Shown here: positions 33,503 to 33,553 of the stretch, in pieces
How positions within the stretch are numbered: position 1 is the first letter of the stretch
Layout of the letters: each line of letters starts with the position of its first letter
Source: Bacteroidia bacterium
Lineage (GTDB): Bacteria; Bacteroidota; Bacteroidia; Bacteroidales; GWF2-35-48
Length of the DNA: 58,079 nt
NCBI GenBank assembly: GCA_016212695.1
Contig: JACREX010000117.1
Span: 1-58,079, forward strand
Direction: 5' to 3'
Notes under the pieces: generated by a model
The model's database searches: none
Told to the model about the DNA's origin: nothing
Seen by the model: the letters and a program-made list of their open reading frames with translations, nothing else
Program-made: the position numbers and the translations under genes

Positions 33503-33553
33503 CTACGGGACGAATGCGAGGCGGAGACCTATGTTGTTGTTGCGGTTCGAACC
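33503..33553 (-). repeat. Shortened DGR template repeat (TR) remnant
   Basis: ggttcgAACcgcAACAACAACataggtctccgcctcgcattcgtcccgtag; both ends match the 3' end of the 34801-36960 gene. Confidence 0.75.

Follow-up and report, generated by a model that had tools for sequence, protein, structure and literature searches.

A probable dead DGR beside its intact FGE-domain target gene in a Bacteroidia genome

The DNA stretch analyzed here ("the window") covers positions 1–58,079 of contig JACREX010000117.1 from a Bacteroidia bacterium (GCA_016212695.1), and the features discussed below lie on its reverse strand (Table 1). The largest is an intact gene encoding PEGA and FGE-sulfatase domains (Pfam matches of 6e-51 and 3e-50, respectively), the latter spanning residues 505–723 of 726. 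Its ORF extends over 34801–36981, with an upstream ATG, but a signal-peptide-like sequence begins with the ATG at 36960, which makes that codon the likelier start. The 3′ end of the gene, which encodes a ligand-binding domain of the CLec/FGE type, forms the variable repeat (VR) of a diversity-generating retroelement (DGR). It is followed by a stretch of noncoding filler, two fragments of a reverse transcriptase (RT), the remains of a template repeat (TR) and a conserved stretch. We found no second strain of this species, and the closest homologue of the target gene is 62% identical.

Table 1. Features of the window, of the intact sister cassette (L105) and of the other DGR-type RTs in the same genome
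Feature	Location	Positions	Strand	Remarks
DGR target gene	Window	34801–36960	−	Intact; signal peptide, four PEGA domains, FGE-sulfatase domain
VR	Window	34801–34932	−	132 nt; 3′ end of target gene
Foreign filler	Window	33859–34650	−	In place of accessory ORF and RT 5′ half; non-homologous to L105
RT relic, fragment A	Window	33737–33858	−	PIGNLTSQ...YMDDMVLWHN, catalytic YxDD included; 118/120 nt as in intact L105 RT
RT relic, fragment B	Window	33554–33736	−	C-terminal part, different frame
Decayed TR	Window	33503–33553	−	51 nt remaining of 132
Conserved region directly 3′ of TR	Window	33401–33502	−	94 nt 100% identical to L105
Second relic, VR-type fragment of Fib_succ_major protein	Window	33187–33351	−	Pfam PF09603, 1.4e-7 / 3.9e-7
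IS200-like (REP-associated) transposase gene	Window	32766–33110	−	Pfam Y1_Tnp, 2e-14; hairpins on either side
Second relic, DGR-type RT C-terminal fragment	Window	32574–32730	−	88% identical over 129 nt to C116 RT 3′ end
FGE target	L105	1873–2868		331 aa; no PEGA array seen
Small accessory ORF	L105	3019–3486		Putatively HRDC-like, from reading of the sequence
RT	L105	3461–4462		Intact, 333 aa
TR	L105	4463–4594		132 nt
DGR-type RT	Contig C116 (L019)	6536–7762 + ~7820–7970		Fib_succ_major TR; RT without internal stop
DGR-type RT	Contig C249 (L020)	6352–6520 + 6583–7422		Fib_succ_major TR; RT frameshifted

An earlier note, made from the sequence of the window, had paired the 51-nt segment with the 132-nt VR and read their differences as the signature of DGR mutagenic retrohoming in an FGE gene. 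The two sequences, their coordinates and the 81-nt difference in length are as it described, and a recount of the shared 3′ 42 nt again placed five of seven mismatches at adenines; its start for the target gene is also the one favored above. With the best gap placement, the 51 nt of the relic align to the VR with a single 81-nt gap and 9 mismatches; 7 of these fall at TR adenines, and no mismatch coincides with a VR adenine (hypergeometric p = 2e-4). The pair has an E value of 6e-7 in the 4.03-Mb genome, which has no significant copy besides these two. Every template position left in the relic is an Asn codon. Codons ending in C occupy 12 of the 16 template Asn sites of the window VR, as against 24% gene-wide (p = 3e-5), and across 119 target homologues hypervariability falls in the columns of the template Asn codons, most of the remaining VR columns being near-invariant.

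Scanning a single genome from each species revealed an intact relative of this cassette, L105 (JACRAL010000112.1, Bacteroidetes bacterium NC_groundwater_1592), in which the FGE target, accessory ORF, RT and full 132-nt TR follow one another on one strand. Its VR, TR, RT and TR-downstream region are near-identical to those of the window, making it the same DGR, although it is intact where the window's is broken and its target has a different N-terminal part. All 16 mismatches between the VR and TR of L105 lie at adenines. Comparing the window VR with the L105 TR gave 22 mismatches over 132 aligned positions, every one at a template adenine (A>T 12, A>C 5, A>G 5; p = 3.6e-15), and non-A differences numbered zero. 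Thus, the tally of A versus non-A mismatches that the earlier note had proposed as a check came out strongly on the side of its retrohoming signature, and the non-A-biased VR differences that it had weighed against its own reading are not what the alignment contains. Adenines in non-Asn codons were altered as well (CGA>CGG, CAG>CGG, GAC>GTC and GCA>GCC), which fits a process directed at adenines rather than at codons.

The sister also makes it possible to read what was lost. Relative to the L105 TR, the relic differs only by the 81-nt gap and by two non-A changes, both absent from the window VR and from L105. Because the window VR and L105 hold the older bases, these two tail mismatches (GGC>GGT and CGT>CGC) represent decay of the TR and not change in the VR. 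The missing 81 nt are flanked by direct repeats, as had been proposed, of which 5 nt are certain (AACCG); several intact TRs of relatives have AACCGC at both deletion endpoints. Since these repeats are codon-phased, the loss is in frame and selection need not be invoked. A recurrent shortened form of the TR was considered and rejected, as among 395 genomes of the order the pattern occurs in the window alone. The assembly-wide search suggested by the earlier note found no full-length TR in this genome. Two points temper the view that the VR is no longer rewritten: the assembly, at 90.5% completeness, leaves a slight chance of a full TR elsewhere, and a DGR-type RT that appears unbroken is present on contig C116.

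The RT is broken in several places. Fragment A differs from L105 by two changes, both synonymous, and fragment B by six nonsynonymous and four synonymous codon changes (stop loss counted), the latter tally being in line with lost constraint. The junction between them is the 9-nt repeat GCACAACGA at 33728–33736, which occurs once in the window and twice in L105 (at 4123 and 4280, 157 nt apart); the corresponding 157 nt are missing, which also shifts the RT frame. In addition, the RT stop codon TAG has become CAG, so that the C-terminal RT frame continues into the TR, and this is the fusion of TR and RT relic that the earlier note had described. Upstream, homology to L105 ends at 34651 (L105 position 3019, the start codon of the accessory ORF) and restarts at 33858 (L105 position 4001, within the RT). 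The accessory ORF of the sister is therefore missing, and the locus has no intact RT ORF, no full-length TR and no accessory gene of Avd or HRDC type, each of which a functional DGR requires. What it does have is what characterizes an inactive DGR remnant: an adjacent DGR-type RT, a VR in a CLec/FGE domain, and TR/VR differences at template adenines, in 22 of 22 cases against the sister TR and in 7 of 9 against its own relic.

The replaced stretch, about 980 nt in the sister, is occupied in the window by filler containing a RAYT/IS200-like C-terminal fragment, a terminal hairpin and 21-nt tandem repeats. By reading of the sequence, the fragment appears to be an IS200-like/RAYT C-terminus resembling that of the nearby Y1_Tnp gene, and the filler may have arisen by RAYT/IS200 insertion. 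The tandem repeats (ACTTTTGAATTACAACCTTGT type, approximately 10 units) occupy 34105–34314.

The region directly 3′ of the TR is conserved. Its counterpart in L105 is 4594–4700, and it recurs at the same position after the TRs of approximately 18 other loci. The stretch follows the pattern AGCTCA...AGCCGGATGGCT...TGAACAGAT...TGTCCC...hairpin...CAAA, which is found in DGR loci of several phyla, and compensatory changes are seen in six of seven predicted pairs. The template RNA of the DGR probably ends in this stretch, as its 3′ part. Among Rfam families none matched the stretch at threshold; a match to RT-14 at 33382–33502 was discarded, as it scored 27.9 against a gathering score of 48.1 and was unseen in the intact sister.

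A second DGR relic lies next to the first, at 32574–33360 (−), and is split by the IS200-like/RAYT transposase gene, with the left junction after TTAC. Its Fib_succ_major fragment differs from a TR-like sequence in a relative (L046) at 27 positions, 20 of them adenines (p = 9e-6), and because the differences are mostly at A we regard it as a VR remnant. The RTs on contigs C116 and C249 were considered as sources of the FGE cassette and rejected, as both adjoin TRs of the Fib_succ_major type and the latter is frameshifted. The plastic region is bordered, past the histidine kinase gene, by short AT-rich tandem repeats of the TTGCTAAA/TTGCTATA type at 32380–32500.

Other DGRs of the order likewise have the arrangement VR-RT-TR, with 17 of 20 and 17 of 17 mismatches at A. 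Their TRs share the coding frame GSNRVNRGGSWNNN..NCR.ANRNNN.P.NRNNN.GFR, from which the relic lacks exactly 27 codons between two NR. The cassettes of the window and L105 are near-identical in RT fragment A and fully identical in the 94 nt after the TR and in the non-A positions of the VR, whereas the TyrRS proteins of the two hosts are only 70% identical. Horizontal transfer is the simplest reading of this disparity, and the cassette was thus probably acquired horizontally; the differing N-terminal parts of the two targets indicate that more than one kind of protein has received the diversified domain. A genome of the same genus (G001) was examined as an intact comparison and carries the upstream kinase (85%) and TyrRS (81%), but the cassette is absent from it and its two flanks are on separate contigs. 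That the cassette resides in phages was also considered and rejected, as no similar DNA was found among 50,697 phage records.

Taken together, these results support a model in which the locus is a dead DGR, that is, a former cassette of VR, accessory ORF, RT and TR whose machinery has decayed and whose VR is frozen; we put the probability of this reading at roughly 97%, and nothing was found against a DGR origin of the locus. The adenine-only scar and the lesions in the TR, RT and accessory gene are observed directly, and past retrohoming would account for the scar. From established DGR biology, the RT of the live cassette would have reverse-transcribed the TR RNA, inserting random bases opposite template adenines, and the cDNA would then have replaced the VR, re-drawing some 15 codons on the C-type-lectin-like surface of the FGE domain. 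Decay came later: filler with its RAYT/IS200 fragment took the place of the accessory ORF and the RT 5′ half, 157 nt were lost between the two GCACAACGA repeats, the loss of the stop codon joined the RT frame to that of the TR, and 81 nt dropped out between the AACCG repeats. The model sets no order among these lesions. Presumably the cassette is inactive at present and its target frozen: as the assembly contains neither an RT of this type nor a full TR, rewriting of the VR would be over, and the intact target would hold the last variant.

Several other explanations have to be weighed. The 51-nt segment could be a mere duplicated piece of an ordinary FGE gene, its adenine bias arising by chance; this genome is rich in FGE-domain genes (nine matches), and the short relic–VR comparison taken by itself is no stronger than its p value of 2e-4. 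We nevertheless consider this vanishingly improbable, as the segment sits at the exact position of a TR, after the RT 3′ end and before the 94 nt identical to the sister, and column frequencies in the 119 homologues, multiplied together, predict Asn at all four template positions in only some 0.1% of FGE homologues. The 22 of 22 mismatches at A against the sister TR, and the existence of an intact sister, already refute it. Thus, the ordinary FGE fragment that the earlier note had held out against its own proposal gives way to a former TR.

The broken state of the cassette could instead be illusory. Hypervariable repeat copies are difficult to assemble, and in a draft genome of 259 contigs an assembly artefact might conceal a cassette that is intact in the cell. 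However, multiple independent lesions (the replacement of about 980 nt, the 157-nt deletion, the stop loss, the 81-nt deletion and point changes) and a nearby second relic that is similarly broken make such an artefact very unlikely. Equally unlikely is continued activity of the shortened TR, in which an RT acting in trans, such as that of C116, would re-diversify the last three variable codons. The relic does retain the 3′ end where homing would begin, together with an intact downstream RNA region, and the C116 RT has no internal stop; yet the tails of the relic and the VR differ at two non-A positions that retrohoming could have equalised, and the C116 RT adjoins a TR of the other type with a candidate target of its own, which is likewise A-biased (L067, 24 of 31 mismatches).

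A dead DGR of this kind is a well documented new example rather than a new kind, as both FGE targets and degraded DGRs have been described. Across DGRs, at least 75% of mismatches at template A is the rule (PMC8144416). DGR targets of the FGE superfamily have been described, as have TRs that overlap the end of the RT (PMC3521204), and the window shares with these systems (DiGReF group 3, in which the TR overlaps the RT 3′ end, and group 2, in which it lies downstream) an FGE/CLec target with a C-terminal VR, a DGR-type RT, adenine-specific TR–VR differences and a TR directly after the RT. It differs from them in that breakage has affected the RT, the accessory ORF and the TR alike, leaving the target gene alone intact. 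In cyanobacteria, remnants of TR–VR homology lacking an RT have been reported, as has a degraded RT-only cassette flanked by transposases, and it was suggested that the machinery may be removed after a good variant has been selected (PMC7517822). As in those degraded DGRs (Nostoc all3226 and the RT-only case of Anabaena sp. 90; PMC7517822), the diversified gene of the window outlives its machinery and IS200/IS605-family transposases are close by. Unlike them, the window belongs to a different phylum and has visible scars in the RT, TR and VR alike, each lesion being readable from an intact sister.

It is tempting to go further and suppose that selection locked in the target, a useful binding variant having arisen and loss of the diversifier having been favored, partly via IS200/RAYT insertions, twice side by side. 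We regard this as a speculative and rather unlikely extension of the dead-DGR reading; if true, DGRs in Bacteroidetes would act as mobile "try, then fix" devices.

In summary, the locus is a clean fossil in which an intact sister makes every lesion readable and an adenine-only scar persists in a presumably frozen target that no longer has its machinery. It lends support to the proposal, made earlier for cyanobacteria, that a diversified gene can outlast its lost diversifier. The pairing of a live cassette in L105 with a dead one in the window would allow one to test whether frozen targets evolve under ordinary selection.
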